Shown here piece after piece: positions 7,900 through 26,981 of a stretch of 64,000 bases of DNA (position 1 is the stretch's first letter; the number at the start of each line of letters is the position of its first letter). The notes below the pieces were generated by a model. That model made no database searches and was not told the DNA's origin. It saw nothing but the letters and a program-made list of their open reading frames with translations. The position numbers and the translations under genes were made by a program. The stretch comes from Actinacidiphila acidipaludis (lineage in GTDB: Bacteria > Actinomycetota > Actinomycetes > Streptomycetales > Streptomycetaceae). Location of the stretch: contig NZ_JAINZZ010000022.1 in assembly GCF_019890725.1 (NCBI RefSeq), positions 1 to 64,000 of the forward strand, in the 5' to 3' direction.

Positions 7900-9972
7900 T
7901 CAACCGCAGCCGACTCCGTAGGAGTTGCTGCCCGAGGCGGCGCCCGGCGTGGTGGAGACGGTCAGACCGACGTACGGGTGGGCCTTGTCCACGGTGAAGG
8001 TCAGCTTGTCGGTGTACGTGTAGGTCTGCGCGCCCTTCGGGAACTGGGCGGTCTGCGGACCGTTCACCATGACCGCGCCCTGCGGCGAGCGGCCTGCGCT
8101 GCGCCACCACCTCAGGTGCAGCGTGCCGGCGGCCGTCCCGTCGTACCGCACCACCACCGTCGCCGTGGCCGTCCGCTTCTTGCCGGACGTGCAGCTGAAG
8201 CCGGTCACCGCGACCGAGGAGACCTGCGGGCTGCTCGGTTCCGCGGTCGTCGGCGTGACGGTGGGGGCCGTGGCGCTCGGCGACGCGGGCGGCACGGACG
8301 CCGGGGTGGTGCCGGTCGGCGTGGCCGGTGCGATCGTCGTCGTGGTCCTGACCCGCGCGTGCGTCGGCGAGGCGGAGGGACTGCTGCTCGCCGGCGCGGT
8401 GGTGACGGGGGCCGCGGGAGTTGTCGATCCGGCCGTGGCGGGCGTGGTCGCCGCGGCGGTGCTGCTCGACGGGCCCGGGTTCGCCGCGGCGCTGGTCTTG
8501 TCGTTGCCGGACGCGACGGCGGTGATGGCGACCACCACCACGGCGACGACGGCTGCCGCCGCGACCGCCACGATCTTCGCCCGCCGCCCGAAGCGCGGCG
8601 GCCGGCCGCCACCGCCCGCCTCCGTCCCGCCGGGCGCCGTCCCGCCGCCTCCTTCGGGGACGGCGAGGGCGGAGCCGGGACCGAGGGTTCCCTTGGCGAC
8701 GTCCGCAGGCGGGGCGGCGTCAAGGGGCTGAGCCGGGGTGGCGCCCCCCTCCGGAGTGGCCTCCCCGGCGGGGATGGCACTCGCGGATGCTGCCGCGGCT
8801 TCGGGGGCGGCCGGGGCGGCGGTGTTCGGGGCGGTCTTCGGGGCGGTCTTGGCCGGGGCTTTGGTGGACTTGGCCGTCCTGGCGGACTTCGCGGCCTTGC
8901 CCGTCCCCGCGGCCGACGTCGTCGTGGCGGCGGGAGCGTCCGGGCCCGGCTGGGTGTCGGTCTGAGCTGTCTGTCCGTTCTGCGCGGCCTGGGCGGATCC
9001 AGCGGCCCGGGCGTTCTGCGCGGACGTCCCGGCGGCCGCGGCGCCCGCTGCCGTGCGCTTGGCCGCGGTGGTCCTCCTGGCCGCGGCCTTGGTGGTCTTC
9101 GCGGCCTTGACCGGCGACGTGCCCGCGCCGGCGGCCGCGTTGGCGCCGGCCTGGGCGTCCTGGGCGGAGGGAGCCGTGGCGCCCGCCGCGGCAGCGGTAC
9201 CGGCTGCGGCCGCGGTGGTGCGCTTGCCCGGGGTGGTCTTCCTGGCGATGATCTTCCTCGCCGCAGGAGCGTCCTTGGCCGACTTCGCTCCTGCCTGCGG
9301 CTGCTTCGCGGCAGTGGCAGGGGAGTTGTCCTGGGCCGGAGCCTGGGGCTGTTCGGGCGTGGCGGCCGCAGCGGTGCCTTCGGCGGCTGCCGGTGCGGCG
9401 TCCGCGTCGGCGCCTTCGGCGGTCACGGCCCGCGCCGTCGCCCTCGCGTCCACTGTCGCTTCCACCGCGGGTGCGGCTGCCGTTGCCGGCGTCCCGGCGG
9501 CCGCGGCGCCCTTCGCCGGCGTGGCCTCGACGGTGCCGGCCGTGGCGGGCGGCTCGGCGGTGGGGGAGTCGGCCTCGGCTGGGGCGCTCTCGGCTGCGGC
9601 CGCTGCTCCGGTCGTGGCCGCCTTGGCCGGTGCGCGCCTGGCCGCCGTCGTCTTCCTGGCGGGAGCGGCCTTGGCTGTCGAGGAGGCCCTGGCCGCAGGC
9701 GTCTTCGCACTCGTCTTCGCAGTCGTCTTGGTGGCCGGAGTGCGCTTGCGCGGGGCCGGTGCGGGCGCGATCTCGACGTCCGCCGCCGCGGGCTGCGCGG
9801 GCCCGGACTCGCTCCCGGCGGCCGGCTCAGCGGCCGCGGACGTGCCCTCGGCCGTCCTCGTCTCGCCCGCCGAGCCCTGCGCGGGGGTTCCGGCGGACCC
9901 TGCGGGGGGCGCGTCGTGCGGCGTCGCGCCGTCGGTGCCGTCGGGTATGCCGGTGCCGTCGATGTCGCTCAC
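7900..9972 (-). CDS. Ala/Thr/Lys-rich single-pass membrane protein with secreted C-terminal domain
   Basis: 690 residues from GTG 9972 (GAGGGG lies 9 bases upstream; another in-frame start at 9999 has no ribosome site). Residues 1-460 are low complexity, with Ala/Pro/Glu blocks alternating with lysine-rich blocks such as ARKTTAARRAPAKAA and AAKTTKAAARRTTAAKRTAAG (about 75-120 and 225-310), which resemble the DNA-binding tails of actinobacterial HU and histone H1-like proteins. A membrane helix follows at about 467-488 (basic RRAK before it). After a Ser/Thr/Pro linker, a ~100-residue domain with two cysteines ends the protein outside the cell. I recognise no family for that domain. Long runs of one codon type make the low-complexity part prone to frame artefacts. 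Confidence 0.75.
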   Translation of the reverse strand: MSDIDGTGIPDGTDGATPHDAPPAGSAGTPAQGSAGETRTAEGTSAAAEPAAGSESGPAQPAAADVEIAPAPAPRKRTPATKTTAKTSAKTPAARASSTAKAAPARKTTAARRAPAKAATTGAAAAAESAPAEADSPTAEPPATAGTVEATPAKGAAAAGTPATAAAPAVEATVDARATARAVTAEGADADAAPAAAEGTAAAATPEQPQAPAQDNSPATAAKQPQAGAKSAKDAPAARKIIARKTTPGKRTTAAAAGTAAAAGATAPSAQDAQAGANAAAGAGTSPVKAAKTTKAAARRTTAAKRTAAGAAAAGTSAQNARAAGSAQAAQNGQTAQTDTQPGPDAPAATTTSAAGTGKAAKSARTAKSTKAPAKTAPKTAPNTAAPAAPEAAAASASAIPAGEATPEGGATPAQPLDAAPPADVAKGTLGPGSALAVPEGGGGTAPGGTEAGGGGRPPRFGRRAKIVAVAAAAVVAVVVVAITAVASGNDKTSAAANPGPSSSTAAATTPATAGSTTPAAPVTTAPASSSPSASPTHARVRTTTTIAPATPTGTTPASVPPASPSATAPTVTPTTAEPSSPQVSSVAVTGFSCTSGKKRTATATVVVRYDGTAAGTLHLRWWRSAGRSPQGAVMVNGPQTAQFPKGAQTYTYTDKLTFTVDKAHPYVGLTVSTTPGAASGSNSYGVGCG

Positions 9973-10154
9973 GTGATCCTGCCCCTCGCGCCGCCCCATG
10001 TCAGGGACTTGTCGGTCGTGTGCCCCCGACCCGTGGTCACGTCGGGTCGCGGGAAGCTCGCCCCCTGCCCGAGGGCGCCGCGGCAACCCTCGAGTCCCCG
10101 AGGGGACGGCTGTGAGGATCAAGAGGGTACTGCCTTCCGGCAGTTCGCCCGACC

Positions 10155-10177
10155 ACGGCCCCGTACGGGAGGGCCGT
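10155..10177 (-). terminator. Possible terminator downstream of the lanthipeptide exporter
   Basis: ACGGCCC (10155-10161) pairs with GGGCCGT (10171-10177) around a 9-base loop, about 30 bases beyond the exporter's stop on the minus strand. Confidence 0.35.
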
Positions 10178-10204
10178 CCCAGGCCGGCGTGGCAGGGGCC
10201 GGTG

Positions 10205-12064
10205 TCAGCGGACGGGGAGGGCCTGGCTGGCGACGAGTTCGCGGTAGGGGAGGCAGCGGCTCAGCAGGGTGTCGTGCTCACCGGCGTCGACCACCGTGCC
10301 CTGGCTCATCATGACCACGTGGCGCGCGTGCTGGACGGTGGACAGGCGGTGGGCGACCACGATCACGGCGCGGGTCAGGGCCAGGGTGTCCACGACGGCC
10401 CGGAACCGCTGCTCGTTGAGGCCGTCGAGCTGGCTGGTCGGTTCGTCGAGCAGCACGATGCCGGCGTCGGAGAGCAACGCCCGTGCCAGCGCCATGCGTT
10501 GCCGCTGGCCGCCGGAGAGGTCGGAAGCGCGGCCCAGCACGGTGTCGAGGCCGTACGGCAGCCGCGCGACGTCCTCGGTGAGCCCCACCGCGGCCAGCGC
10601 CGCGGCCAGTTCGTCGTCGGAGGCGGGACGGGTCCTGCCCAGTTGCAGGTTCTCCCGAGCCGTGGCCTCCAGCAGCGTGAACGCCTGGTCGACGTAGGCG
10701 ATGCGGGCGCGCAGCGCCTCCAGGGGCCACACGCGGGAGTCGTGGCCGAGCACCCGGATCGAGCCCGCGTCCGGCTGGACGAAACGGTCGATGAGGGCCA
10801 GGGCCGTGCTCTTGCCGGCGCCCGACGGGCCCACGACGGCGGTCAGGCCGGTGGGCGCGGTAGTGAACGAGACGTCGCGCAGGGCGGGATGGTCCGACCC
10901 GGAGTGCGTGCAGGACACCGAGCGGAACTCCACGGCGGGCGCGCCGGGCACGGGTACGGGCACCGGCCGGTCCGCGTCATGCGGACCGGCTTCCAGCGGG
11001 AGCGCGAGCAGGTCGTTGCAGCGGTCCCGCGCGGCCAGACCTCCCTGCAGCCGCCCGAAGCCGGTGGCCAGGGTGCTGACCGACGGCACGGTCTGCAACA
11101 GGTAGAGCAGGAAGGCTGCGAACGCCGCCACTTCGAGGTCGCCCGAGGCCAGCCGCGCGCCGCCGGTCAGAATGACGGAGATCATCGCGAACTGGTTGCC
11201 GAGCGTCAGGACCGCCGGGACGAGCGTGCTCAGCCGGCCGCCCTGCAGGGCGATCGCGCGCAGCCTGTCCGCGTCCCCGGCCAGCGCGGCCGCGGCGACC
11301 GGTTCAGCCCGGTACGCCTTGACCGTCGCGAGTGCCTCAAGACTCGCGGTGAACCGCTGCGCCACCCGTCCCACGGCATCCTGCTGCGCGCCGACGTTGA
11401 CCTTCATCCGGCGCAGGATCAGCAGGACGAGCACGGACAGCACGGCCAGAGCGAGGACGGTGACGAGCGTGAGGACCCAGTCGATCCACACCATGACGAA
11501 CAGCGTCGCCACCACCGTCAGCCCGGCCAGCGGCAGTTGGGTCGCCACGTCCACCACCTCGCGCAGCAGCAGCGCGTCCGAGGTGATGCGGGCGGTGAGT
11601 TCTCCGGTCCCCTGGGCCCGGACGACCGGCAGCGGCAGCCGCAGCGCGTGCTCCATGATCCGGGTCCGCAGCCGGTACGTCATCCGCTCGCCGATCCGGG
11701 CCAGCAGCATGCCCGCGACCGCCTGGGCGAGCGCCCCGCACACGGCCACCACGCACATCAGCGCCACGTCGGTGCCGAGCGCCCGGTGTGCCGAGAAGTC
11801 GGTGATGATCCTGCGCACCAGCAGGGGGAGGGCCAGTGTGCCGCCGGTGGCGGCCACCGCGAGCAGCAGGGCGCAGGTCAACCGGGCCGGATCGGCGGTC
11901 AGTTCGTGGCGCAGCCGTACCTGGGTCCGGGCGTCCCCGCCGGTGCCGTCCGGCTGAACGGCGGTCCGGGCGGCGGGCTGCGCGGAGGACGCGGAGGCCG
12001 CGGAGGACGCAGAGGACTCGGAGGGCGCTGGGGACGCTGAGGACACGGAGGACGGTACGGCCAC
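10205..12064 (-). CDS. ABC transporter, fused permease and ATPase; probable lanthipeptide exporter
   Basis: 619 residues from GTG 12064. The first ~45 residues are a Ser/Ala-rich tail; residues ~45-335 hold six membrane helices of the ABC exporter type; residues ~370-610 are the ATPase with Walker A GPSGAGKST, signature LSGGQRQRMALARALL, Walker B IVLLDEPTSQLD and AHRLST. There is no N-terminal C39 peptidase domain, so it exports but does not cleave. It lies about 100 bases after the lanA stop, on the same strand, and most likely secretes the modified peptide. SapB/AmfS clusters usually have two half-transporters; only one is present, so it should act as a homodimer. Confidence 0.88.
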   Translation of the reverse strand: MAVPSSVSSASPAPSESSASSAASASSAQPAARTAVQPDGTGGDARTQVRLRHELTADPARLTCALLLAVAATGGTLALPLLVRRIITDFSAHRALGTDVALMCVVAVCGALAQAVAGMLLARIGERMTYRLRTRIMEHALRLPLPVVRAQGTGELTARITSDALLLREVVDVATQLPLAGLTVVATLFVMVWIDWVLTLVTVLALAVLSVLVLLILRRMKVNVGAQQDAVGRVAQRFTASLEALATVKAYRAEPVAAAALAGDADRLRAIALQGGRLSTLVPAVLTLGNQFAMISVILTGGARLASGDLEVAAFAAFLLYLLQTVPSVSTLATGFGRLQGGLAARDRCNDLLALPLEAGPHDADRPVPVPVPGAPAVEFRSVSCTHSGSDHPALRDVSFTTAPTGLTAVVGPSGAGKSTALALIDRFVQPDAGSIRVLGHDSRVWPLEALRARIAYVDQAFTLLEATARENLQLGRTRPASDDELAAALAAVGLTEDVARLPYGLDTVLGRASDLSGGQRQRMALARALLSDAGIVLLDEPTSQLDGLNEQRFRAVVDTLALTRAVIVVAHRLSTVQHARHVVMMSQGTVVDAGEHDTLLSRCLPYRELVASQALPVR

Positions 12065-12166
12065 GGTCGGAGACCTCTCTGGGGGCGGGGGAGTGGCCGG
12101 CCGGGGCCGTGGGACGGCCCCGGCCGGCTGCTCGATGCGCTCCGCCCTAGCGGGCGGTGCCTGCGA

Positions 12167-12304
12167 TCAGAGGCACAGCAGGGTGCTGACGGTGCTCACG
12201 CCGCAGTTCAGGACGCTCAGAGAGCTGGTGTTCTCCAGGGTCTCGTCGACCGCGGTCTCCTCGGTCTCGGGCAGTTCCATGGTCTGCAGGTCGAGGATCG
12301 CCAT
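12167..12304 (-). CDS. lanA: Class III lanthipeptide precursor (SapB/AmfS-like)
   Basis: 45 codons on the minus strand, ATG 12304 to TGA 12167. AAGGAG lies 7 bases upstream. The leader begins MAILDLQTMELPETEE; the LDLQ/ME motif matches the leaders of RamS and AmfS, where it docks on the LanKC enzyme. The acidic leader runs to about residue 25. The core holds two equal modules, SSLSVLNC (Ser27, Ser30, Cys34) and STVSTLLC (Ser37, Ser40, Cys44), joined by GV. Both are Ser-x2-Ser-x3-Cys, the pattern converted by class III enzymes to labionin or to lanthionine plus dehydroalanine. Ring and linker spacing equals that of SapB. The gene sits between lanKC and the exporter, which fixes its role. Confidence 0.93.
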   Translation of the reverse strand: MAILDLQTMELPETEETAVDETLENTSSLSVLNCGVSTVSTLLCL

Positions 12305-12343
12305 GACTGTTCTCCTTCGCTGGGTTTTCACTGGGATGGATCA

Positions 12344-12360
12344 CCCGGCCGGTGGCCGGG
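12344..12360 (-). promoter_or_regulatory. Hairpin in the lanKC-lanA gap
   Basis: CCCGGCC (12344-12350) and GGCCGGG (12354-12360) form a perfect 7-bp stem with a 3-base loop, 40 bases before the precursor start. It could partly stop transcription, or protect the 5' end of a processed lanA message so that precursor exceeds enzyme. Both are inference. Confidence 0.4.
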
Positions 12361-12402
12361 GGCTTGTGGGGCGCGGTCGCGCCGGGGCTGGGGCCGGGCC
12401 TG

Positions 12403-15006
12403 TCAGCCGATGAGGGAGGATGCGCGGGGCACGGTGGTGCGTGCCCCGGTCCAGGGCAGGAAGGGCGTTCCGGCCAGCGCCGTCCCGAGGGCGAGCAGCA
12501 CCCCGGCGGAGCCGGTCGCCAAGTCGGCCGACAGGCGCAGCAGTTGGTCGCCGGGGAAGGCCAGTCGGCCCTCGTACGAGATCTGGTGCAGGGCCAGCCG
12601 GGTCCGGTGCCGTCGCAGCATCACGGCGGCCCGTGCGGGACCGTCCGCGGCGCCGTCGTGCCGGGTCAGTGCGAGGTAACCCAGCAGTCCGGCCCGCCCG
12701 TTGAACAGGCCGGGCTGGATGACGAACTCCGGTTCCGCGGCCCGGCGCAGCGCGTCCCGGTGCCGGGCGAGTTCGCTGCCGGGACGATGGGCGAGCAGTG
12801 CGTCCAGCGCCAGGCCGATCCCGGCGCTGCCGGTCTCCACGTACGGCAGGACGCGGCGGCCGTCGACGACCTGGAGGGTGCCGTCGGCGACGCTGGCGCA
12901 GCGGTCGACGTCCAGGCCGAGAAGGGCTTCGGCCCGGTCCAGCAGGCGGATGTCGCCGCCGTGCTCGTACAGCCGGATCAGGGCCAGCGCCGCACCGGAC
13001 GCGCCCGCCAGCAGTCCGGCCCTGCGTCCGGCGTCGCCCGGGCCGGCCTTCTCCAGGGTGTCGGCCGCCGACACGGCGAGCGACAGGGCGCGGTCGGCCG
13101 TCGCGGTGTCACCGGTGACGCCGGCGAAGTGGAGCAGGGCCAGGGCGATGCCCGGCGTGCCGGTGCCCAGCGTGGTGTCGGCGTGGTCGTCCGGCGCCTT
13201 GGACAGCCGCCGCACCAGGGCGAGAGCGGTCTCGTGCTCACCGAGCAGGTCCAGGACGTAGGCCACGCCGTGCCCGCCGTGATAGAGACCCGGCACCGTG
13301 GAGCGGGCCTCGGCCGCGTCGGCGAGCCAGCGCACATGCGCCGGATCGACCTCCGCGCCCGTCACGTGCAGGGCGTACAGGACGCCGGCCGCGCCGTGGG
13401 CCAGGCCCAGGCCGCCGTGCGCGAACTGGGCGACGTCGCCGGGAAAGAGCCGGTCCGAGCGGCCGGGGGTGGCGGTGGCCGCGATGCCGGCGGCCAGCGA
13501 GTCCCGGATGGCGGGCCAGTCGGGCTCACGCGCGGTCAGCAGGGCGTTGAGCTCGGCCCGGCGGCGGCCGATGGCGGGCCCCCGCGTGCGCCCGTCGCCC
13601 TCGGAGTGCCCGAGCAGCGCACGGATGTCGTCGGCGTAGCCGGGAGGCACGGGGAAGCGGCGCTCCAGGAAGTCCGCCAGCTCGCCGGCCTTGCCCGGGT
13701 CGAGGGCGGTGAGCTGCGGCAGTGGCAGGAACAGCCAGAGGCGGATCGCGGCGAGCGCGTAGCGGTCGACGTCGGTGCCGGAGTACCCGCGGGGCGCGCT
13801 GAATCCGGCGGCTCCCAGGGCGGGACGGAGGAACTCCTCGGTGGTACTGGCCAGTTCGAAGTCGATGAAGCAGATCTCACCGTCGGGCCGCACGATCAGG
13901 TTCCTCGGGTGCAGGTCGCCGAAGACCACCCCGCGGGCGTGGATGGCGTCGAGCGTGCTCTCTATTCGCCGCACCACGTCCAGCGCCTCGCGGCAGTACT
14001 CCGCCACGACCGACTCGTCGGCGCCGGGGTGGATCAGCGGGTAGCGTGCGGTCAGCCACTGACTGAGCGACGTGCCCTCGACGTACTCCTGCACCAGGAA
14101 CTCGTGCTCCCACGCCGTCAGCAGACCGTGCTCGGCGGGGACGCCGGGCACACCGGCGAGGCGGGTCAGGACGGCGTGCTCGTTGCGCAGCCGGGTCACG
14201 GCGTCGACCCCGCGCTGGTCCAGACCCGCGTGCGGCCGGGCCTCCTTGAGCACGACCCGCGGTCCGCCGGCGGGATCGGCCGCCAGGTACACGCCACCGG
14301 CGTTGGAGAAGTGCAGCACCCGCTCGACGGCGTAGGGCAGCCCGGTTTCCCGGGGCTTCGCGCGATCGGCGACGGCGGCGGCGATGTGGCCGGGGACCGG
14401 CGCCCAGGGCGGCACGGAGAAGCCGGGCCCGCGGACGTCGGGGACCAGCGTGCCGTCCGGCCGCCGCAGCGCCAGCACGCGGTCGCCGGCGTCGTTGCGG
14501 CAGTACTGCTCGGCGAACCCCCCGTAGCGCAGGTACAGCGGACCGTCGGCCCAGCGCAGGTCGCTGAGGATGTACGGCCCCCGCCGGCCTTTCAGCAGAC
14601 CGCCGAGCCCCTCGAGACATCGCTCCAGCTCCTGGTCGTCCACCGGGTAGACCGTGCAGAACTTCCCGCTGGCCTGGCGGGCCGCGTACTTGGAGTTCTG
14701 CACTTGGAGGATGGGCAGCCCGCGCAGGAACTTGAAGGTGATGCGCTCGCGCAGGCAGTAGGCCCAGACCGTCTCCAGCACCGCCTCGGCGTCCTCGGCG
14801 CACGCGGACACGTGGATCTTCCAGCCCTGCGCCGGCAGTTGGACCTCCAGGGGCCGCACGATCGACCAGATCTCCGCCTCGCTGCGCTCCCAGCCGTCGG
14901 GCAGGGGCCGGGACACCGCGGCGAACTCCTCGTGCGCGCCCCAGCGCCGGGGCGTGTCGTAGAAGTGCGGGTCGGCGTAGGCATAGGCCTCGTACCGGTT
15001 GTCCAA
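12403..15006 (-). CDS. lanKC: Class III lanthionine synthetase LanKC (RamC/AmfT-like)
   Basis: 867 residues. Start set at TTG 15006, which has GAGGAGGG 5-8 bases upstream and gives the family N-terminus DNRYEAYAYADPHFYDTP. Residues ~1-220 form the lyase region, ~230-490 a protein-kinase-like domain (Lys in VVLKEARP, catalytic loop GDLHPRNL, DFE in place of DFG), and ~520-867 a LanC-like cyclase. The Cys and Cys-His zinc ligands of true LanC proteins are missing (GLFNGRAG where CHG would be), which separates class III from class IV. It phosphorylates and eliminates Ser of the lanA core, then forms the rings. First gene of the cluster; lanA follows 98 bases after its stop. Confidence 0.95.
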   Translation of the reverse strand: MDNRYEAYAYADPHFYDTPRRWGAHEEFAAVSRPLPDGWERSEAEIWSIVRPLEVQLPAQGWKIHVSACAEDAEAVLETVWAYCLRERITFKFLRGLPILQVQNSKYAARQASGKFCTVYPVDDQELERCLEGLGGLLKGRRGPYILSDLRWADGPLYLRYGGFAEQYCRNDAGDRVLALRRPDGTLVPDVRGPGFSVPPWAPVPGHIAAAVADRAKPRETGLPYAVERVLHFSNAGGVYLAADPAGGPRVVLKEARPHAGLDQRGVDAVTRLRNEHAVLTRLAGVPGVPAEHGLLTAWEHEFLVQEYVEGTSLSQWLTARYPLIHPGADESVVAEYCREALDVVRRIESTLDAIHARGVVFGDLHPRNLIVRPDGEICFIDFELASTTEEFLRPALGAAGFSAPRGYSGTDVDRYALAAIRLWLFLPLPQLTALDPGKAGELADFLERRFPVPPGYADDIRALLGHSEGDGRTRGPAIGRRRAELNALLTAREPDWPAIRDSLAAGIAATATPGRSDRLFPGDVAQFAHGGLGLAHGAAGVLYALHVTGAEVDPAHVRWLADAAEARSTVPGLYHGGHGVAYVLDLLGEHETALALVRRLSKAPDDHADTTLGTGTPGIALALLHFAGVTGDTATADRALSLAVSAADTLEKAGPGDAGRRAGLLAGASGAALALIRLYEHGGDIRLLDRAEALLGLDVDRCASVADGTLQVVDGRRVLPYVETGSAGIGLALDALLAHRPGSELARHRDALRRAAEPEFVIQPGLFNGRAGLLGYLALTRHDGAADGPARAAVMLRRHRTRLALHQISYEGRLAFPGDQLLRLSADLATGSAGVLLALGTALAGTPFLPWTGARTTVPRASSLIG

Positions 15007-15146
15007 CGGAAACCCTCCTCGGACGGCGGCGGCGCGGTGCGGCGGGCGGAACTCGGCATGCGGAATTCCCTGGTCGGGTGTCGCGAAGCGGTCCCGGCCG
15101 ACCGATTCCCGTCGGCCTTGCGGAAATCCGCGATGCGAACATCCGA

Positions 15147-15176
15147 AATATGACCGGCCCTCGAAGGCGCCTGCAA
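15147..15176 (-). promoter_or_regulatory. Possible lanKC promoter
   Basis: On the minus strand TTGCAG (15176-15171) is followed after 18 bases by CATATT (15152-15147), a fair -35/-10 pair in an unusually AT-rich patch. The leader to TTG 15006 would be about 135 bases. Confidence 0.35.
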
Positions 15177-15827
15177 CGGCGCTACGGAGCCCAGTCGTTC
15201 GGGGGTATCGCGCGCCGGCGCCCTCAGGTCGGGAGAGGGCGCACGATACGAATGGAAGTGCGCCGGGTCGGCTGAACGCGCCCGTTCCGCGCCTCCCCTC
15301 TCGGGTACACGCCCCGGTGCGCGCCGGGTGGGCAACCGTGCCCTTCGTCGCTCCTGCCTGCGGCTTCGTGATGAGCCGGTGTGCGTGACGCCGCCCGGTG
15401 GGCGGTGGGCGGGGCGCGGCCTCGGGACGCGATGGCGGCGAACCGGCGGCGTGACCGGGCCGGCCGGCCACCCGAGGCGTTCTTGACAGAACAGCGCCGG
15501 TGATCCCCGGAACGCGTTCCGGTCAGTGTCCGGCTGAATTCCGGTCAGTTGCAGCTCGAACGAATAGGGCGGAGGTGGACGGGGAGTGCCGCATTCCGGC
15601 GATGGCATTACGCCAATCGTCGGGTGTCCGCTGTCGTATACGACTCCGAGAGAGGACCAGGAATTCCTCGGATCATTTGACGCGTGGTGAGGCATTGGCC
15701 TTCGCGGCATCGTTGCCCCTTTTCCCGGGGCCATTTCGCGCCGGGGGGTGGATTCCCGCTCCCGCCGCTGCCTCGACCCGGGCCGGTCGTCGGGCGGCGC
15801 CTGCCGCCCAGTCCGAGCGATCCTTGC
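15177..15827. other. Intergenic region without a recognisable gene, with palindrome and direct repeat
   Basis: Most of the ~900 bases between lanKC and the next gene lack coding signal: third-position GC is not enriched in any frame and no start with ribosome site leads to a protein-like product. Base composition is more AT-rich than the neighbours from about 15480 on. It contains a perfect 16-bp palindrome, CCGGAACGCGTTCCGG (15507-15522), and an 11-bp direct repeat, TTCCGGTCAGT, at 15517-15527 and 15539-15549, spaced by 22 bases (two helical turns). A TTGACA lies at 15483-15488. This looks regulatory, but no target gene is certain. Confidence 0.45.
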
Positions 15828-18125: not shown

Positions 18126-21100
18126 CTACTTCCGCTTGAGCGTGAAGTCGGTGATGACCGCGACTCCCTTCTTGATCTTCACCGTGGCCACGGTCGGCTG
18201 GTAGCCGTCCTTGGCGACGATGACCGTCAGCGGGTTGTTGCGGGTGTCCAGCCACAGCGCGTACGTGCCGTCGGACCCGGTCGTCAGCGTGTACGTCGAC
18301 GCCCAGCTGTCGACCTGGACGGTGGCCCCGGCCAGCGGCGCGGTGCCGCCGGTCGAGGTCACGCCGAGGACGGTGCCGTTCATCTTGCCCCACGTCTTCG
18401 GAGGGTTGACGTGCAGCGTCACCGGGATCGGCGCCAGCTGGTACGGGGTGTCGCTGCCCGCGGTGATCTGCGCGGTGAAGTCACCGGGCTGGGTGACCTC
18501 GGGAACCGAGGCGTCCAGCGTGACGGTGACCGTCGAGCTCGCGCCGGGCTGCAGCGTGAGCGCCTGAGTGCTCTCGCCCAGCCACGTGACGTCGGCCGAA
18601 CCCTCCTGCGCGTAACCGGGCAGCAGCTCCACCTTCGTGATCGGCGAGCCGGGGGCGTCGCCGCCGCCGACCTTGTAGAAGCCGGCCGCGCCGCCGCCCC
18701 GGTAGGTCGGGACGTTGGCGTTCGGCAGGGCGCCCCACGTGCCGGACTGCGGGTCGAAGGCGTAGGTGCGGTTGGTCAGGGCGTTCTGGCTGACGCCGCT
18801 GGAGAGTAGCAGCAGCCCGTTCGCGGAGGTGTACGACGCGGCCCACTGGGTGGTCGGCATGTCCGCGATCGGCGACCAGGCGTCGCTGCCCGGGTCGTAG
18901 ACGTAGGAGTGGATGACGTCGGTGCTGCCGTTCAGACCACCGGCGCAGTAGAGCTGGCCGTTGATGCCGGCGCAGGACTCCCAGGAGATGGGCTCCGGGT
19001 ACGCGGCGATCGCGGTCCAGCTGTCGGTGGACGGGTCGTAGGCGCTGGCGTCCGTGGTGCCGCAGGACGTGGCGCCGCAGCCGCCGATCATGTAGAGCTT
19101 GCCGTCGAGCACCGCGGTGCCCGAGCCCGCGTACGGCTTGGGTGCGGAGGTGCCGGTGCTCCACGCGTCGCTGGCGGGGTCGTAGATCTCCAGCTTGGCG
19201 TCCGGGTTGCCGGACGCGCCCCAGCCGCCGACGGCGTAGAACTTGCCGTCGATGAAGCCGTGGGCCGGGGCTTCCCGGGTGTCGGCCGCCGACGCCAGCT
19301 TGGTCCAGCTGCCGGCCGTCGGGTCGAGGACGTAGAGGTCCTTGCTGTCGGCGGAGCCGGTGTAGCCGAAGGCGGAGTAGACCTTGCCGTCATAGGTGCC
19401 GACGGCGTTGTCCATGATGGCGTTCGGGTAGTCCGGGGCGGTCTGCCATGCGTCGTCCGACGGTCCCGCGGCCGGCTTCGTGGTGCCGTCGGCCGGGTGG
19501 GCCTTGCTGGACAGCGGGGAGTAGGAGCCCTTGACCGTCTGGAGCGGGGCACCCTGCGCCTGGATCTTGAAGCCGCCTGAGCGCTCGCCCAGCTTGAGCG
19601 TGGCGGGGGCGCCGCCGGTGTTCTTCACGGTGAGCTGCTGCGAGGTCTTCCCGCCCCAGCCGACGGTGGCGTCGACCGAGCCCGGGGTGACCTTGAGCTG
19701 ACCGGCCTTGAGGTTGAAGTCCCCCTCGACGGCGCTGTCCGCGGCCACCTTCACCGTCTTGGCGGTGGTGGCGTAGTGGGACTTGGCGGCGTCGAAGGCG
19801 TGGCTGCCGAAGGTGGTGGAGAACAGGGAGTAGTAGCCGTCCCCGATGTTCGGGTCGTCGGGCGTGGCGACGGTGGTGGCGGTCTGGGCGGCGTCGTCCT
19901 CGGCGGTGACCTTGGCGCCGACGACACCGGCGGAGGTGTTGGCGTCGGTCACGGTGCCGACGACCAGGCCGCCGGGGATCGTGGTCAGGTCGCGGTTGCC
20001 GACGAAGACGTTGTCGACGGACCACCACCAGCCGAAGTGGGACTGGAAGCGGAACCGGACCTGGACGGCGGACTTGCCGGCGAAGTCGGAGAGCGGGACT
20101 TCGATCCGGGCGGGGCCGGGGACGCCGGAGGTGGTGGACCAGACCTGGGTCCACGTGGCGCCGCCGTCGGAGGTGGCGTCGACCTCGGCGGTCTGGTTGT
20201 TGAACGCGGTGTAGTCGGTGTTGAAGGCGACCTCGGGCGCGTCCTTGTCGGTGAAGTCGTAGACCGGGCTGACCAGGGAGGTGTCCTGGGTGGCCGCGCC
20301 GCCGAAGTGGTCGCTGTCGGCCACGGCGAACGCGCCGTCACCGCCGGTCCGGTTGCCGCGGGAGCCCGGGTCGTCGAACTCCCAGCCGCCGGTGGTGCCG
20401 TCGGCGTTCACCACGCTCCAGCCCGTGGGCGGCGCGTCGGTGGCGTCGAACGTCTCGGTGGTGCCGGTCAGGTGCTGGCTGTACCCGCGGGCGGTGCCCG
20501 CCCACCGGTCGACCGGCACGGAGATGTTCAGGCTGCTCGCGCTGTCACCGACCGTCACGGTCTTGGTGACGGACTGGTAGCCGGGGTCGTTCGCGGCCAC
20601 GTGCAGGGTGTAGTCGTGCCCCTGCGGCAGCGACATGGAGTACGCGCCGGTGGCGGGGTCGGTCCACACCGAGCCGGGGACGCCGTCCGCGGTGATCTTG
20701 GCGTAGAGCGGCCAGCCGTGGCCGGAGCCGTCGGTGACCTTGCCGGAGACGGTCTGGCTCGGCACCGAGGTCAGGCTGTAGTTCTTCGTGAGCGTCGCCC
20801 CGTCGGCGACGGCCACACCCGAGTCGGTCGCGGTGGCGTAACCGAAGGCGTCCACGGTCACGTCGTAGGTGCCGACCGGGACCGTCAGGTCGTAGGCGCC
20901 GGAGGCGTTGGTGTGCGCCACGTCGGTGCCGACGCTGACGGTGGCGCCCGAGATCGCCTTGCCGGTGGCGGAGTCGGTGACGGTACCGGTCACCTCACCG
21001 TGCGGGCCGCTGCGGAAGGCCGCCAGGCCGCTGGGCGTGCCCAGGCCGGTCGGTCCGTCGTAGCCGGTGCCGCCGGTGCACAGGTAGCCAGGGGTGCACG

Positions 21101-22265
21101 AGCCGTTGGAGCCCGTGGTGATGTCGTTGATCCCCGAAGCCGAGGCGTACGGGTACGAGTTGGGGTACGTGCCCGCCACCGGGGTGCCGGCGTCGGCGTA
21201 CACGCTCGCGATGATCGGCGACGACACGCTCGTGCCGCCGTAGACCGACCAGCCGCCGGCGCCGTAGGTCTGGTAGACCGCGACGCCCTCGGCCACCGCG
21301 GAGACGTCCGCGAGTGCGCGGTTGGCGCAGCCGGTGTCCTTCTGGAAGGCCGGCTTGGGCTCGTACAGGGAGCAGCCCGAACCGGCGTCGCTCCAGGCCG
21401 ACTCGGTCCAGCCGCGGGCCGTGCCCGAGTCGCGGGTCAGCGTGGTGCCGCCGACCGCGGTGACGTACTGCGAGGCGGCGGGGTAGCCGACGCCGTATCC
21501 GTAGTCGCCGGTGGAGACGGTCACCGCGACGCCCGGGTGGTTGTAGTAGGCGTCGAAGGCGGTGGTCTCGGACGGGTCCTCGCCGTTGCCGCCGCGGTAG
21601 TCGCTGCCGTAGGAGTTCGAGACGAACTTGGCGCCCAGGGCGACGGCCTCGTTCACCGACGAGCCCAGGTTGTCGAAGCTGTTGTCGTCGGCCTCGACCA
21701 GCAGGATGTGGGCGTAGGGCGCGACCGCGGACACCATGTCCAGGTCGAGCGAGATCTCACCGGACCAGCCCGGGTCGGGGGACGGGTAGCTGGTTCCGCC
21801 GTGCTGGTCGACCTTGCTGAAGCAGCCGTTGGCGGTGGTGCAGGCCGGCAGCCCGTACTGGTCGCGGTAGACCGCGAGGTCCGCCTCGGCGTTCGGGTCG
21901 TCGAAGGCGTCGACGATGGCGACGGTCTGCCCGGCGCCGCCGTCCGTCGGCAGGGCGTAGGCGCTCTGCAGGTCGGTCGCGCCCCAGCCGTTGGGGGTGA
22001 CGGCTGCCGGGGTGACGCCCTTGCTCGCCTTCACGTCGGTGCGCCGCAGCGCGTAGCAGGTGAACTCGTTCTTGCCGGGCACGGAGCAGGAGGGCTCCAG
22101 CAGCGGGTGTCCGTCGGTGGCGGCGGCCGGGGTCGTGCCGGACGGCGCGGTGGCCCCGGCCGGTGCCTGGATTCCCAGGACCGCCAGCGCGGTGGCACTG
22201 GCGACGGCCAGGCCGGCGAAGATCGTCCGCCGGAGAGGTGGTCTGGTTCTCGTGGAATTGCGCAA
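18126..22265 (-). CDS. Secreted S53 (sedolisin) protease with kelch propeller, multidomain
   Basis: 1379 residues from TTG 22265 (GGAG 7 bases upstream). A signal peptide (about 1-38) is followed by the S53 domain (~80-430): Glu and Asp four apart in GEISLDLDM, the Ser in GGTSVSSPI, and the calcium-site end TGYDGPTGLGTP. Unlike kumamolisins there is hardly any propeptide. Then come two carboxypeptidase-regulatory-like beta domains, a jelly-roll of the MAM/immune-inhibitor type (~590-760), another regulatory-like domain, a kelch propeller (~930-1240, blades with YDPASDAW, YDPSTDSW, YDPGSDAW) and a last beta domain with NNPLTVIVAKDGY. It should degrade protein outside the cell at acid pH, as the family does. 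It is paralogous to the divergent gene at 22725. Confidence 0.9.
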   Translation of the reverse strand: MRNSTRTRPPLRRTIFAGLAVASATALAVLGIQAPAGATAPSGTTPAAATDGHPLLEPSCSVPGKNEFTCYALRRTDVKASKGVTPAAVTPNGWGATDLQSAYALPTDGGAGQTVAIVDAFDDPNAEADLAVYRDQYGLPACTTANGCFSKVDQHGGTSYPSPDPGWSGEISLDLDMVSAVAPYAHILLVEADDNSFDNLGSSVNEAVALGAKFVSNSYGSDYRGGNGEDPSETTAFDAYYNHPGVAVTVSTGDYGYGVGYPAASQYVTAVGGTTLTRDSGTARGWTESAWSDAGSGCSLYEPKPAFQKDTGCANRALADVSAVAEGVAVYQTYGAGGWSVYGGTSVSSPIIASVYADAGTPVAGTYPNSYPYASASGINDITTGSNGSCTPGYLCTGGTGYDGPTGLGTPSGLAAFRSGPHGEVTGTVTDSATGKAISGATVSVGTDVAHTNASGAYDLTVPVGTYDVTVDAFGYATATDSGVAVADGATLTKNYSLTSVPSQTVSGKVTDGSGHGWPLYAKITADGVPGSVWTDPATGAYSMSLPQGHDYTLHVAANDPGYQSVTKTVTVGDSASSLNISVPVDRWAGTARGYSQHLTGTTETFDATDAPPTGWSVVNADGTTGGWEFDDPGSRGNRTGGDGAFAVADSDHFGGAATQDTSLVSPVYDFTDKDAPEVAFNTDYTAFNNQTAEVDATSDGGATWTQVWSTTSGVPGPARIEVPLSDFAGKSAVQVRFRFQSHFGWWWSVDNVFVGNRDLTTIPGGLVVGTVTDANTSAGVVGAKVTAEDDAAQTATTVATPDDPNIGDGYYSLFSTTFGSHAFDAAKSHYATTAKTVKVAADSAVEGDFNLKAGQLKVTPGSVDATVGWGGKTSQQLTVKNTGGAPATLKLGERSGGFKIQAQGAPLQTVKGSYSPLSSKAHPADGTTKPAAGPSDDAWQTAPDYPNAIMDNAVGTYDGKVYSAFGYTGSADSKDLYVLDPTAGSWTKLASAADTREAPAHGFIDGKFYAVGGWGASGNPDAKLEIYDPASDAWSTGTSAPKPYAGSGTAVLDGKLYMIGGCGATSCGTTDASAYDPSTDSWTAIAAYPEPISWESCAGINGQLYCAGGLNGSTDVIHSYVYDPGSDAWSPIADMPTTQWAASYTSANGLLLLSSGVSQNALTNRTYAFDPQSGTWGALPNANVPTYRGGGAAGFYKVGGGDAPGSPITKVELLPGYAQEGSADVTWLGESTQALTLQPGASSTVTVTLDASVPEVTQPGDFTAQITAGSDTPYQLAPIPVTLHVNPPKTWGKMNGTVLGVTSTGGTAPLAGATVQVDSWASTYTLTTGSDGTYALWLDTRNNPLTVIVAKDGYQPTVATVKIKKGVAVITDFTLKRK

Positions 22266-22724
22266 CGTGTGACTCCATGCGTTCTTGCAGGGGTCGACCC
22301 GTGTACGGCTCTGGGGGCGACGGTGAATGCACGTGCAATCACCGGGGGTTAATTAGCGAATCCTGTTCAGCTCATGTCAACGGTCGCGGTTTGTGACAGA
22401 CGCGCACTCGGTGTGACGGAAGGGAGAGACAGGTGTGGCGGAAGGAAGAGGAATGATGGGGGTTTCTGGGGGATTGCGGAGTGAACACACAACCCCTACT
22501 CATGAGTTGACGCATCAGAGACCCCGTTGGTTCCCGCCTGTCCGGCTCGGGGCGTGAACACGTCACGGCGGCAAGCCGCCAGCGGCCCGCATTGACCGGT
22601 GATTCACGCCAGTTGGACCTTTGTGCTGGTCAGTCCGCCTCCTCGGGCTCCAACCGTCCCGCGTCCCTCTCCCGGATCCCCGATCACCCCGCGAGGTTCC
22701 GCAGCCGTCACTCCTGGAGTCCCC
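22266..22724. promoter_or_regulatory. Divergent promoter region between the two S53 protease genes
   Basis: Minus-strand promoter: TTGACA (22380-22375), a 17-base spacer and GCTAAT (22357-22352), giving a leader of about 80 bases for the protease at 22265. The region around 22350 (GTTAATTAGCG) is strongly AT-rich for this genome. For the plus-strand protease only weak candidates are seen (TTGACG at 22507-22512, TTGACC at 22592-22597) without a good -10 box. No gene is apparent in these 459 bases. Confidence 0.55.
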
Positions 22725-25700
22725 TTGCCAGTCCAACGCCCATCCGCGGGCCGGCGCACACGGCGGCACATCGCCGCCGTGGCCGCCGCCGTCCTCGCCC
22801 TCTTCGCGGTGCTTCTGCCCCAACAGGCCCTCGCCGCACCGCAGTCGGCCACCGGGAAGGTGACCGCGGCGCCCGCCTGCGGTACTCCGAAGCCCGGGCA
22901 CTTCACCTGCTTCGCGCTGCGCCGCACCGGCCACGCCGCCGCGCTCGGCGTGCGGCGCGACACCGCCGGAACGGCCGTCGCGCCCGACGGCTACGCGCCC
23001 GCCGACCTGCGGTCGGCCTACGACCTGCCCGCCGACGGCGGAGCCGGCGCGACCATCGCGATCGTCGACGCCTACGACAACCCGAACGCCGAGTCCGACC
23101 TGGCCGTCTACCGCGCGCAGTACGGCCTGCCGGCCTGCACGTCCGACAACGGCTGCTTCCGCAAGGTCGACGAGCACGGCGGCGCGGCCTTCCCTGCCGC
23201 CGACGAGGGCTGGGGCGCCGAGATATCCCTGGACCTGGACATGGTCTCGGCCGTCGCGCCACAGGCCCACATCCTGCTCGTCGAGGCCGACGCGACCACC
23301 TCGGACGACCTGGGCACCGCGGTGAACACGGCGGTGTCCCTGGGCGCGAAGTACGTCTCCAACTCCTGGGGCGGGTACGGCGACAGCACGGACGACCTGG
23401 CCTACGACGAGGCCTACTTCAACCACCCCGGCGTCGCCGTGGTGTTCAGCTCCGGAGACGACGGCTACGGCGTCAGCTACCCCGCCTCGTCGCCCTACGT
23501 CACGTCGGTCGGCGGCACCTCGCTGGTCCGCGACGGCAGCTCCCGCGGGTGGGGAGAGTCGGTCTGGAACGGCGTGACGTACAACTCCGACGGACCGCAC
23601 TGGGGCGCCACCGGCTCCGGCTGCTCGGCCGTCGAGCCCAAGCCGTCCTTCCAGGCCGGCGTCGACTGCGCCGGGCGCTCGGTCGCCGACGTCAGCGCGG
23701 TCGCCGACCCGGCCACCGGTGTCGCGGTCTACAACTCCTTCTCCGACGGCGGCTGGAACGTCTACGGCGGCACGTCCGCGTCGGCGCCGATCATCGCCGG
23801 CGTCTACGCGCTGGCGGGCACCCCCGTCGACGGCACCTACCCCGCTGCCTATCCCTACCAGCAGCCCGGCGCGCTCAACGACATCACGCGCGGCGACGAC
23901 GCGAGCTGCTCGGACGCCTCGCTCTGCGGCTACGGCACGGTCCCCGACTGCACGCCGGCCTACACCTGCGCCGCGCAGCCCGGCTACGACGGCCCGACCG
24001 GCCTCGGCACGCCCATCGGCGTCGCCGCCTTCAAGCCCGGCCCGCACGGCGCGGTGAGTGGCACGGTGAGCGACACGGCCACCAGGAAGCCGATCACCGG
24101 AGCCGCCGTCAGCCTCGGGGACTACCACGCGACCACCGACGCCCAGGGGCGCTACCGGCTCGACGTCCCGGCGGGCAGCTACCCGCTGACGGTCTCGGCG
24201 TTCGGTTACGCGGACCAGGACCTCGGGCAGGTGCGCGTCGACGACGGCGCGGCCCTCACCCAGGACGCCGCCCTCACCGCCGTACCTTCGCAGGAGATCT
24301 CCGGCACGGTCACGGACGGCGGCGGCCACGGCTGGGGCCTGTACGCCAAGCTCACCGTGGACGGCGTGCCCGGAACCGTCTTCACCGACCCGGCCACCGG
24401 CCGCTACTCGCTGCGGGTCCCGATGAACCGCAGCTACACCCTGCACGCCACCGCGCTCTACACCGGCTACCAGCAGGCGGCCTCCACCGTCGACGTGGGC
24501 ACCGGCCCGCGCACCGTGAACCTGGCCCTCCCGCTCAGCACCACGGGAGCGCTCCCGCCCGGCTACGAGACGGACTACCACGGCGGCGGGCTGGAGCCCT
24601 TCGCCACCGCGGCGGCGCCCGACGGGTGGACGGTCAAGAACAACACCTCCGCCGGCGGCTGGCAGTTCGACGACCCGCTGAACCGGGGCAACCAGACCGG
24701 CGGCACCGGCCGCTTCGCCGAGGTCGACGACTTCGCGCTCGGCTGGGCGCCCGCGGACACCGAACTCATCAGCCCTGTCTACGACTTCAGCGCCGAGACC
24801 AAGCCCGCGCTGCAGTTCGACACCGCCCTGCCGTCGCTGTACCGGCTGGGCGACCTGACGGCCGACGTCGACGCCAGCACCGACGGCGGCGCGACCTGGA
24901 CCACCGTGTGGCACCACACCGACGTCCTCGGCGGCCCCTCGCACCAGAATGTGCCGCTGACCGCCTACGCCGGGAAGTCCTCGGTGCGGCTGCGGTTCCA
25001 CTTCACCGGCTCGCTCACCGGCATCTGGCAGATCGACAACGTGGCCGTCGGCACCCCGACCCTCGTCACCCGGCCCGGCGGCCTGGTCGTGGGCCAGGTC
25101 ACCGACGCCAACACCCGGGCCGGCGTGCTCGGCGCGACGGTGAACGGCGTCGCCGCCCCGTCCGACGCCGGCCGCAGCGTGGCCTCGCCCGGTGACCCGG
25201 CCGTCGGGGACGGCCTGTACTGGCTGTTCTCCAGCCGTACCGGCAAGCAGCAGTTCACCGCGGGCCTGCCCGGCTTCGGCTACCCGGCGGTCACCGCCAA
25301 GGTCGACGTCCGGCCCGGCGCGGTGACGGCGGCCGACTTCGCCCTGCACCCCGCCCAGTTGCGGTACAGCGTCTCCGCCGTGAACGCGAACGTGGCCTGG
25401 GGGAGCAGCAGGACCGTCGACGTCAAGGTGCGCAACACCGGGGGCTCGCCCGCGACGTTCTCGCTCGGCGAGCAGAACCTGGCCGGCCCGAAGTCCGGGG
25501 CGGCCGGTCCCGCGGCACGCCGTACGCCGACCGCGATCACACCGCACGACCTGCTGAAGGCCGCGCCGGCGGCGGCCACCGGGGCCGCGCCCACGGCCGG
25601 GGCGTCCGCTTCCGCCGCCGCACCGGCCGACCAGGCGTGGCAGCCGCTCACCGACCTGCCCGCCGCGTCCTTCGGCGGCGTCGCGGCGGTCGACCACGGC

Positions 25701-26981
25701 ACCCTCTACGCCGGGCTCGGCGAGTCGCCCGGCGGCGTGTGGAGCGGCTCGTTCGCCTCGTACGACGCCACGGCCGGCACCTGGAAGACGCTCGCCGCCC
25801 CCACCACCAAACGCTTCTCCCCGGCCTACGGATTCATCCGCGGCAAGCTCTACGTCACCGGCGGGCGGGACGCCGCGGGCAACCCGATCGCGGGTGGCGA
25901 GGTCTACGACCCGGCGACCGACTCCTGGTCGCAGATCGCCGACATCCCGACCGCCTACGGCGCCTCGGGATCGGCCGTGGCCGGCGACAAGCTCTACGTC
26001 ATCGGCGGCTGCGACCTGTTCAACTGCGGCTACAACGACGTGCAGGTCTACGACCCCGCGACGGACACCTGGTCGGCGGGCGCTCCCTACCCGGAGCCGA
26101 TCGGTTTCCCGGCGTGCGGCACCGCCGACGGCATCGTCTACTGCTCCGGCGGGGTGTACCAGCCCGACGGACAGGCCCCGCAGGACACCGTCCACACCTA
26201 CGCGCTCGACCCCGCCAAGGGCACCTGGCACCGGGTGGCCGACGCGCCCACCGACGTCTGGGGCGCCTCCGGCACCGCGGCCGACGGAAAGCTGCTGGTG
26301 GCCGGCGGCGTGGAGGTGAGCGCGGACGCGCTCACCAACGAGGCGCACGCCTACGACCCGGCCTCCGACTCCTGGTCGGCGCTGCCGAACCTGGCGAACC
26401 CGGTCCTGGACGCCCAGTCGGCCCCCGGCTGGTACCTGATCGGCGGCGCCAACGCGTACAGCATCCCGCAGGCGTCGGTGCAGAAGCTGGCCGGCTACGA
26501 CCAGCCGCACGCCGACGTGCCGTGGCTGACGCCCTCGGCGGCGAAGCTGACGGTCAAGGCCGGCGGCTCGGTCACGGTCCGCGTGACCCTGGACGCGGGG
26601 GCGATGACCTCGGCCGACCTGGGCGCGCACCGGGCCGCGCTGATCGTGGACAGCGACACCCCGTACGGCTCGGTCTCGCTGCCGGTCACCATGACCGTGG
26701 TCCCGCCCGCCGGCTGGGGGCTGCTGACCGGTACGGTCACCGGCCGCGCCGCCGACGGCACCAGCGGGCCGCTGGCCGGCGCGGTGGTCGAGATCGACTC
26801 CAAGAACGGCGACGTCCCGGTGACCACCGGGCCCGACGGCGGCTACGCGGTGTGGCTGCCGGCCAGGAACAACCCGCTGACGGTCATCGCGGCGGCGACG
26901 GGCTACCGCCCGGCGACCCGCACCGTGCACCTCGTCGCCGAGGGGACGGTGACCGCGGACTTCGCCCTGCTGCACCAGTAG
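22725..26981 (+). CDS. Secreted S53 (sedolisin) protease with kelch propeller, paralogue of the divergent gene
   Basis: 1418 residues from TTG 22725 (GGAG 5 bases upstream); an in-frame ATG at 22599 would put 42 extra residues before the signal peptide and has no ribosome site. The signal sequence (RRTRRHIAAVAAAVLALFAV, cut after ALA) is followed by the S53 domain with AEISLDLDM (Glu/Asp) and GGTSASAPI (Ser). The same order of regulatory-like, jelly-roll and kelch domains follows as in the divergent gene, with matching blades YDPATDSW and YDPASDSW and the same terminal NNPLTVI. A Pro/Ala-rich insert at about 925-970 separates the beta domains from the propeller. Secreted endopeptidase or tripeptidyl-peptidase by family; substrate unknown. 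Ends at a clear hairpin. Confidence 0.9.
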   Translation: MPVQRPSAGRRTRRHIAAVAAAVLALFAVLLPQQALAAPQSATGKVTAAPACGTPKPGHFTCFALRRTGHAAALGVRRDTAGTAVAPDGYAPADLRSAYDLPADGGAGATIAIVDAYDNPNAESDLAVYRAQYGLPACTSDNGCFRKVDEHGGAAFPAADEGWGAEISLDLDMVSAVAPQAHILLVEADATTSDDLGTAVNTAVSLGAKYVSNSWGGYGDSTDDLAYDEAYFNHPGVAVVFSSGDDGYGVSYPASSPYVTSVGGTSLVRDGSSRGWGESVWNGVTYNSDGPHWGATGSGCSAVEPKPSFQAGVDCAGRSVADVSAVADPATGVAVYNSFSDGGWNVYGGTSASAPIIAGVYALAGTPVDGTYPAAYPYQQPGALNDITRGDDASCSDASLCGYGTVPDCTPAYTCAAQPGYDGPTGLGTPIGVAAFKPGPHGAVSGTVSDTATRKPITGAAVSLGDYHATTDAQGRYRLDVPAGSYPLTVSAFGYADQDLGQVRVDDGAALTQDAALTAVPSQEISGTVTDGGGHGWGLYAKLTVDGVPGTVFTDPATGRYSLRVPMNRSYTLHATALYTGYQQAASTVDVGTGPRTVNLALPLSTTGALPPGYETDYHGGGLEPFATAAAPDGWTVKNNTSAGGWQFDDPLNRGNQTGGTGRFAEVDDFALGWAPADTELISPVYDFSAETKPALQFDTALPSLYRLGDLTADVDASTDGGATWTTVWHHTDVLGGPSHQNVPLTAYAGKSSVRLRFHFTGSLTGIWQIDNVAVGTPTLVTRPGGLVVGQVTDANTRAGVLGATVNGVAAPSDAGRSVASPGDPAVGDGLYWLFSSRTGKQQFTAGLPGFGYPAVTAKVDVRPGAVTAADFALHPAQLRYSVSAVNANVAWGSSRTVDVKVRNTGGSPATFSLGEQNLAGPKSGAAGPAARRTPTAITPHDLLKAAPAAATGAAPTAGASASAAAPADQAWQPLTDLPAASFGGVAAVDHGTLYAGLGESPGGVWSGSFASYDATAGTWKTLAAPTTKRFSPAYGFIRGKLYVTGGRDAAGNPIAGGEVYDPATDSWSQIADIPTAYGASGSAVAGDKLYVIGGCDLFNCGYNDVQVYDPATDTWSAGAPYPEPIGFPACGTADGIVYCSGGVYQPDGQAPQDTVHTYALDPAKGTWHRVADAPTDVWGASGTAADGKLLVAGGVEVSADALTNEAHAYDPASDSWSALPNLANPVLDAQSAPGWYLIGGANAYSIPQASVQKLAGYDQPHADVPWLTPSAAKLTVKAGGSVTVRVTLDAGAMTSADLGAHRAALIVDSDTPYGSVSLPVTMTVVPPAGWGLLTGTVTGRAADGTSGPLAGAVVEIDSKNGDVPVTTGPDGGYAVWLPARNNPLTVIAAATGYRPATRTVHLVAEGTVTADFALLHQ

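Follow-up and report, generated by a model that had tools for sequence, protein, structure and literature searches.

A single-exporter locus for a predicted SapB/AmfS-type class III lanthipeptide in Actinacidiphila acidipaludis and its relatives

We analyzed a 64,000-nucleotide stretch of the Actinacidiphila acidipaludis genome (assembly GCF_019890725.1, contig NZ_JAINZZ010000022.1, positions 1 to 64,000; hereafter the window), which carries a compact class III lanthipeptide locus. A preliminary description had placed on the minus strand, in this order, a lanKC gene of 867 codons, a 45-codon frame with a ribosome site and an ATP-binding cassette (ABC) exporter; our coordinates agree with it, the exporter lying outside the span that it had given. 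The locus comprises the following features:

15006-12403, minus strand: lanKC, a class III lanthionine synthetase of 867 residues with a TTG start (NF038151, RamC_N, alignment to ThurKC)

12304-12167, minus strand: lanA, a precursor of the SapB/AmfS family, 45 residues (PF19402, NF033212, ratio of nonsynonymous to synonymous substitution rates or dN/dS)

12064-10205, minus strand: ABC exporter of 619 residues with a membrane and an ATPase domain, BmrA/MsbA-like (PF00664 and PF00005)

15128-15178, minus strand: promoter-like conserved footprint 5' of lanKC, CGTTGC, 21 bases, then ATATTTCGGATGTTCGCATCGCGG (15 of 17 loci)

The lanA product is MAILDLQTMELPETEETAVDETLENTSSLSVLNCGVSTVSTLLCL (45 residues), with the ribosome site GAAGGAGAACAGTC 5' of its frame. 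An LDLQ-type leader and two Ser-x2-Ser-x3-Cys modules (Ser27-Ser30-Cys34 and Ser37-Ser40-Cys44, joined by the linker Gly35-Val36) are both found and are kept in relatives. The two-residue linker had been likened to that of SapB, and the likeness holds, the SapB side of the comparison being the RamS sequence and the string CGDSSLS in RamS-like loci. Asn33 before the first Cys and the C-terminal Leu45 are present as described; the Thr residues said to lie inside the rings occur in the second module (Thr38, Thr41), but the first has none. Both the Pfam RamS model PF19402 (57.4 bits, E = 2e-15; curated cut-off 24.3) and the NCBI SapB/AmfS model NF033212 (57.8 bits, E = 8.5e-16; curated cut-off 25) match above their cut-offs in the precursor-family search that the preliminary description had proposed. 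A precursor that it called easily missed is thus scored by a curated model at more than twice the cut-off. The combination of leader, double module and stop occurs once in the window and in none of 100 third-order Markov copies. Among 21 lanA frames including the window's (19 distinct), 18, 12 and 34 of 45 sites each vary at the first, second and third codon positions, and the median dN/dS is 0.19 (208 of 210 pairs), which is a pattern of purifying selection. A chance frame is ruled out by dN/dS, codon-position bias and the Markov control: because of the family scores, the Markov control and the third-position variation, we consider the observation real and the frame as behaving like a coding one.

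The lanKC gene runs from a TTG at 15006 to a stop at 12403, with GAGGAGG just 5' of the start; in relatives, too, a start codon stands at this residue. Its product scores 1033 bits with NF038151 (cut-off 575) and 395 bits with the class IV LanL model, below the cut-off of 650, and a class IV identity was rejected on this score. With precursor and synthetase both above curated cut-offs, the original assignment to class III lanthipeptides of the SapB/AmfS type stands. RamC_N (260 bits), Pkinase and LANC_like domains are found. The lyase residues listed for ThurKC (Lys65, His67, Lys94, Lys108, Lys117, Asp152, Arg163 and Arg191; PMC10604976) are all aligned in LanKC, together with the DFE kinase motif, in an HMMER alignment to 8sao_B that was read by eye with a hand-derived numbering offset of 3. 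No second class III synthetase or RamS precursor scored above cut-off in the same genome. In a tree of 85 LanKC sequences, from which duplicates (L023, L026, L029) and split-hit loci (L024, L025, L028) were dropped, the 17 sequences from loci with a single exporter fall into one clade (support 1.0), with four MEIL-type sequences as its sister group (1.0). Two LanKCs from Saccharothrix and Streptoalloteichus (L063, L084) lie outside this branch yet nearest to it in the tree; they adjoin 34-residue LELQ peptides with one Cys (L063 8540, L084 8844), and their fetched flanks hold no ABC exporter match above 80 bits.

One of the closest counterparts is the ram locus of Streptomyces coelicolor (ramCSAB plus ramR, producing SapB), for which the exporter pair and the control by RamR are described jointly, as a single locus (PMC4255298, PMC10090380). 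Both loci have a LanKC followed by a precursor of 42-45 residues, whose leader has an LQ-type motif and whose two Sx2Sx3C modules are separated by a two-residue linker, and both precursors belong to the same Pfam and NCBI families. Unlike ram, the window has one BmrA/MsbA-like exporter in place of RamA and RamB, a different core, and a genome in which we found no RamR orthologue, linked or elsewhere. The amf locus (amfTSAB plus amfR, producing AmfS in S. griseus and present in other Actinacidiphila) shares the order synthetase-precursor-exporter and, in most congeners, a hydrophobic core ending in CL. However, its LanKC is about 44% identical, 14 of 18 canonical congener precursors have a single residue between the modules, and, of the seven canonical congener loci available with flanks, all adjoin AmfR and four have paired exporters at the cut used. 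Also close are four MEIL-type loci of Kitasatospora (L043, L045, L046, L055), with the sister LanKC clade and a very similar core (for example STLSVLNCGNSTVSTLLCL); these differ by a shorter leader, RamA/RamB-like exporters (two in three of the loci, one in L045) and the absence of the footprint.

The window's exporter contains no detectable peptidase domain; its closest half-size structures are BmrA, then ABCB10 and MsbA, all of which function as homodimers. One exporter follows lanA in 17 loci (the window, L022, L032-L042, L044, L047, L048 and L105), and those of the 16 relatives are 66-83% identical to the window's. Matches to LanKC and exporter are unbroken in all 17 loci; the stops in four of them fall only at the natural C-terminus or ahead of the conserved part. 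Of 69 loci searched that belong neither to this clade nor to the MEIL type, 36 have two exporter matches at a threshold of 80 bits, 14 have one and 19 have none; many of those loci are incomplete, and their exporters are 26.5-40.3% identical to the window's. A tree of 125 exporters separates the 17 single ones, as a clade with support 1.0, from both the A-type and the B-type partners, and places the MEIL exporters included in it with the A and B types. LLDEP and LSGGQ are present in all 17 single exporters, a degenerate LDDA-type Walker B in at least 45 of 46 A-type exporters and an LDEA-type Walker B in at least 39 of 49 B-type exporters. The tree thus rejects a RamA or RamB identity for the single exporter, and the two adjacent RamA/RamB-type half exporters of ram/amf loci are missing from this locus. 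Given its tree position, its full ATPase motifs and its half-size, homodimer-type relatives, the arrangement is better read as a different exporter replacing the pair than as the loss of one RamA/RamB partner.

To search for a regulator, we used as query an AmfR-like response regulator found beside a canonical congener locus. At E <= 1e-6, 39 of the 69 other loci contain a homologue of it; the window, the 17 single-exporter loci and the 4 MEIL loci contain none, and at another MEIL locus, L237, a 32% match lies some distance away. The window's genome holds 37 AmfR-like matches, of which the top three reach 45-46%. A tree was built from 53 sequences, using hits that cover about 170 residues or more (L158 in it is the linked gene of G020 again). 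These three matches and the unlinked homologues of other genomes fall outside its clade of linked RamR/AmfR genes, in which a core of 28 leaves is supported at 1.0; the genes linked at L051 and L082, two loci from other families, are likewise outside this core. A RamR orthologue elsewhere in the genome was rejected on the basis of this tree, and no linked RamR/AmfR response regulator of the ram/amf kind is present.

Fifteen of the 17 single-exporter loci carry, 5' of lanKC and 35-370 bp from its start codon, CGTTGC followed after about 20-21 bases by ATATTTCGGATNGTCGCATCGCGG or a variant; the surrounding sequence otherwise aligns poorly. Footprint scores in these loci range from 14.4 to 40.6, obtained by leave-one-out for 13 of them and from the full matrix for 2; the highest background score, determined for those 13, is 9.0, and, as related loci are not independent, the scores overstate certainty. 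None of 12 canonical and four MEIL-type loci scores above 1.4. In the window's genome, the sole site within 3 mismatches is the one at 15128-15151. Three other genomes (G020, G026, G140) have one site each, with 3 mismatches and away from their LanA loci, and two carriers of the window-type precursor (G032, G133) have no site within 3 mismatches. The spacing of the two parts resembles that of a -35/-10 promoter. Since a sigma-70 and terminator scan of positions 10000-15500 returned no match, it is their conservation that suggests a promoter here.

Of 35 Actinacidiphila genomes, 20 have a RamS-type precursor, and one of the window type is present in three (G000, G012, G032). Across the family, a sample of 394 genomes contains 44 that the window LanA matches at E <= 0.001, spread over 5 of 17 genera. 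Strong matches read MAILDLQ...SSLSVLNCGTSTVSTLLCL with few changes, while the weaker ones, among those read, are mostly MEIL... peptides that resemble them in the core. Among the species with a window-type precursor are Kitasatospora aureofaciens, K. indigofera, K. phosalacinea, K. purpeofusca, Streptomyces celluloflavus, S. roseus and S. goshikiensis, and further Yinghuangia seranimata, two Streptacidiphilus species and A. rubida. Asn33 and the stretch Ser-Thr-Val-Ser-Thr are marks of the branch, with Leu replacing Val in Yinghuangia. The core that the preliminary description did not recognize therefore belongs to a conserved branch in Kitasatospora, Yinghuangia, Streptacidiphilus, Actinacidiphila and some Streptomyces. 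We ran the RamS model on 25 genomes, 23 of them window-type (the others being G170, of the MEIL type, and G076, whose hit, at the end of a contig, is partial): 22 of the 23 hold no other RamS-type precursor, indicating that the cassette usually stands in for amfS. Precursor reading by regular expression left 6 of 80 loci empty (L049, L053, L063, L082, L084, L090), all re-examined, and a later expression yielded no full precursor for 3 of the 30 loci L128-L157 (L143, L149, L157). Among nine further window-type genomes, six carry the lanKC-lanA-exporter unit unbroken. A Kitasatospora strain, MBT63 (L032 8692 and 8904; G206), has two identical tandem lanA copies, 212 bases apart, before its single exporter.

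The precursor family itself is well known and annotated, with more than 4,000 sequences (PMC13380574); what is added here is a different exporter, the absence of RamR and a conserved upstream element. The core and leader strings of the branch were not found in the literature searched, nor did the single-exporter branch appear in titles and abstract openings on class III lanthipeptides, SapB, Kitasatospora or Actinacidiphila, a coverage that mostly leaves out subscription papers.

We read the locus, with a probability of roughly four in five, as a SapB/AmfS-type class III cassette of a Kitasatospora-type branch, in which the exporter has been swapped and which stands in for a RamR-controlled locus. 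This reading is carried by family membership, the synthetase domains and lyase residues, a non-RamAB exporter fixed in the clade, the upstream footprint and the lack of a detected RamR orthologue; the chemistry of the product, its export and its morphogenetic role are predictions. Transcription would start from a branch-specific promoter 5' of lanKC, as the conserved footprint suggests. By homology and motifs, LanKC would bind the LDLQ leader, phosphorylate and eliminate Ser27, 30, 37 and 40, and close one thioether system per module, as lanthionine or labionin. Four dehydrations would bring the monoisotopic mass to 1923.98 Da for Thr26-Leu45 and to 1822.93 Da for Ser27-Leu45. Ring type is described as hard to tell from the synthetase sequence alone (PMC13380574). 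Export would proceed through one BmrA/MsbA-like ABC transporter, probably as a homodimer, which occupies the place of the RamA/RamB pair of canonical loci, a difference established by the phylogeny. The leader may then be trimmed by an unlinked protease. AplP is of the M1 type, and the window's genome has six M1 and three M16_C protease matches, which do not by themselves identify the acting enzyme. Leader proteases encoded away from the locus are known, namely AplP-like proteases and M16B enzymes (PMC8960859). Lastly, the hydrophobic peptide may act at the colony surface in aerial growth, like SapB, AmfS and durhapeptin. The last of these, from S. durhamensis, is likewise a very hydrophobic SapB/AmfS-family peptide with two Sx2Sx3C modules; two labionins were reported in a variant, and its S26T form induced aerial hyphae in four strains (PMC13380574). 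Unlike the window, its locus encodes a response regulator and a second ABC protein, and was likened by its authors to ram/amf (PMC13380574).

Several observations weigh against this reading. The footprint is absent from two Streptacidiphilus loci (scores of at most 0.4) and weak in three others. One congener (G032) carries canonical and window-type precursors together, the single exception among the 23 window-type genomes. The single exporters group with ordinary ABC exporters of the window's genome at a support of only 0.65-0.87. In G194 (L234), from the Kitasatospora-rich genus g14, lanKC and a 46-residue window-type precursor have no ABC exporter match within about 6 kb. The LanKC match of G140 (L228) is split over two frames, by either a frameshift or an assembly error, with precursor and exporter apparently whole, and G096 (L235), a 76% complete genome, is broken in both lanKC and exporter. 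Three further MEIL-type loci comprise one with an exporter pair and two with no ABC exporter nearby. Exporter content is thus labile in the branch, and the swap may therefore have passed through loss. Finally, durhapeptin S26T was inactive on its own producer, on S. coelicolor and on S. griseus (PMC13380574).

Three alternatives to the swapped-exporter cassette were considered. The product could be an antimicrobial or antiviral peptide rather than a morphogen. Labyrinthopeptins have such activities. They are class III peptides with labionin (PMC13380574), and the patchy distribution and varying gene context of the cassette would suit a traded bioactive compound. Nevertheless, we think this unlikely: the sequence falls in the RamS/SapB family, the core is nearly invariant across genera, and the peptide is the sole RamS-type one in 22 of the 23 genomes, as expected of a stand-in for AmfS. 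Slightly less credible still is an ABC protein not dedicated to the peptide, the real exporter being encoded elsewhere. Its type is indeed a broad one, of multidrug/lipid exporters, and the peptide gene of G194 has no exporter nearby, but in 23 loci the ABC gene stays beside lanA, both genes unbroken, while the flanks change. A decayed and no longer working ram/amf remnant that lost ramB and ramR, to which the missing genes, the AmfR and exporter pairs of the congener loci and the broken (G140, G096) or exporterless (G194) copies of some relatives might point, is very improbable, as the window has three open frames with lanA under purifying selection, the layout is unbroken in the 17 loci of one clade and six more, and the exporter is of neither the RamA nor the RamB type.

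The preliminary description had called the cluster reduced, noting the absence of a RamR-type regulator, a second exporter half and a leader peptidase. These absences are confirmed, by the AmfR-like query for the window and among the genes adjoining the locus for the other two; the term itself does not fit, because the exporter is of a different type fixed in a clade and because actinobacterial class III loci usually lack a protease gene (PMC7268733).

SapB-type peptides are classic small molecules of bacterial development. Here is a branch that retains the peptide, alters the exporter type and does without RamR, mostly in genomes with no other RamS-type peptide, which raises the questions of whether SapB-type peptides can dispense with the exporter pair and how control is exerted without RamR. 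Tentatively, we may also imagine a portable morphogen cassette, with its own promoter, synthetase, precursor and self-sufficient exporter, spreading across Streptomycetaceae genera and displacing the RamR-controlled amf locus. If so, an aerial-growth peptide and its control would be exchanged together, giving a switch of morphogen type and possibly kin specificity.

Changing flanks around the conserved trio would suit such a unit. No fourth gene is common to at least 4 of the 17 loci at the cut used, among the matches listed for the window's first 30 kb and five other loci, and nine flank proteins of the window have no match at the two other Actinacidiphila window-type loci available with flanks (L022, L023). 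A block at 15.82-17.56 kb (an AHSA1/SRPBCC-type gene, a short frame and a short-chain dehydrogenase) is kept in all eight congeners fetched, out of 16 with a match to it, and the cassette sequence has no match within those eight stretches. As the other flank is not conserved, the congeners yielded no clean empty insertion site. Directly downstream of the exporter, positions 7900-10122 (minus strand) hold an Ala-rich frame of 740 residues with a Lys-rich stretch and no family match. On the other side lie two divergent, neighboring giant frames, at 18126-22265 (minus strand, 1379 residues) and 22599-26981 (plus strand, 1460 residues), in both of whose products carboxypeptidase-regulatory-like repeats precede Kelch repeats; the architecture is a duplicated one.

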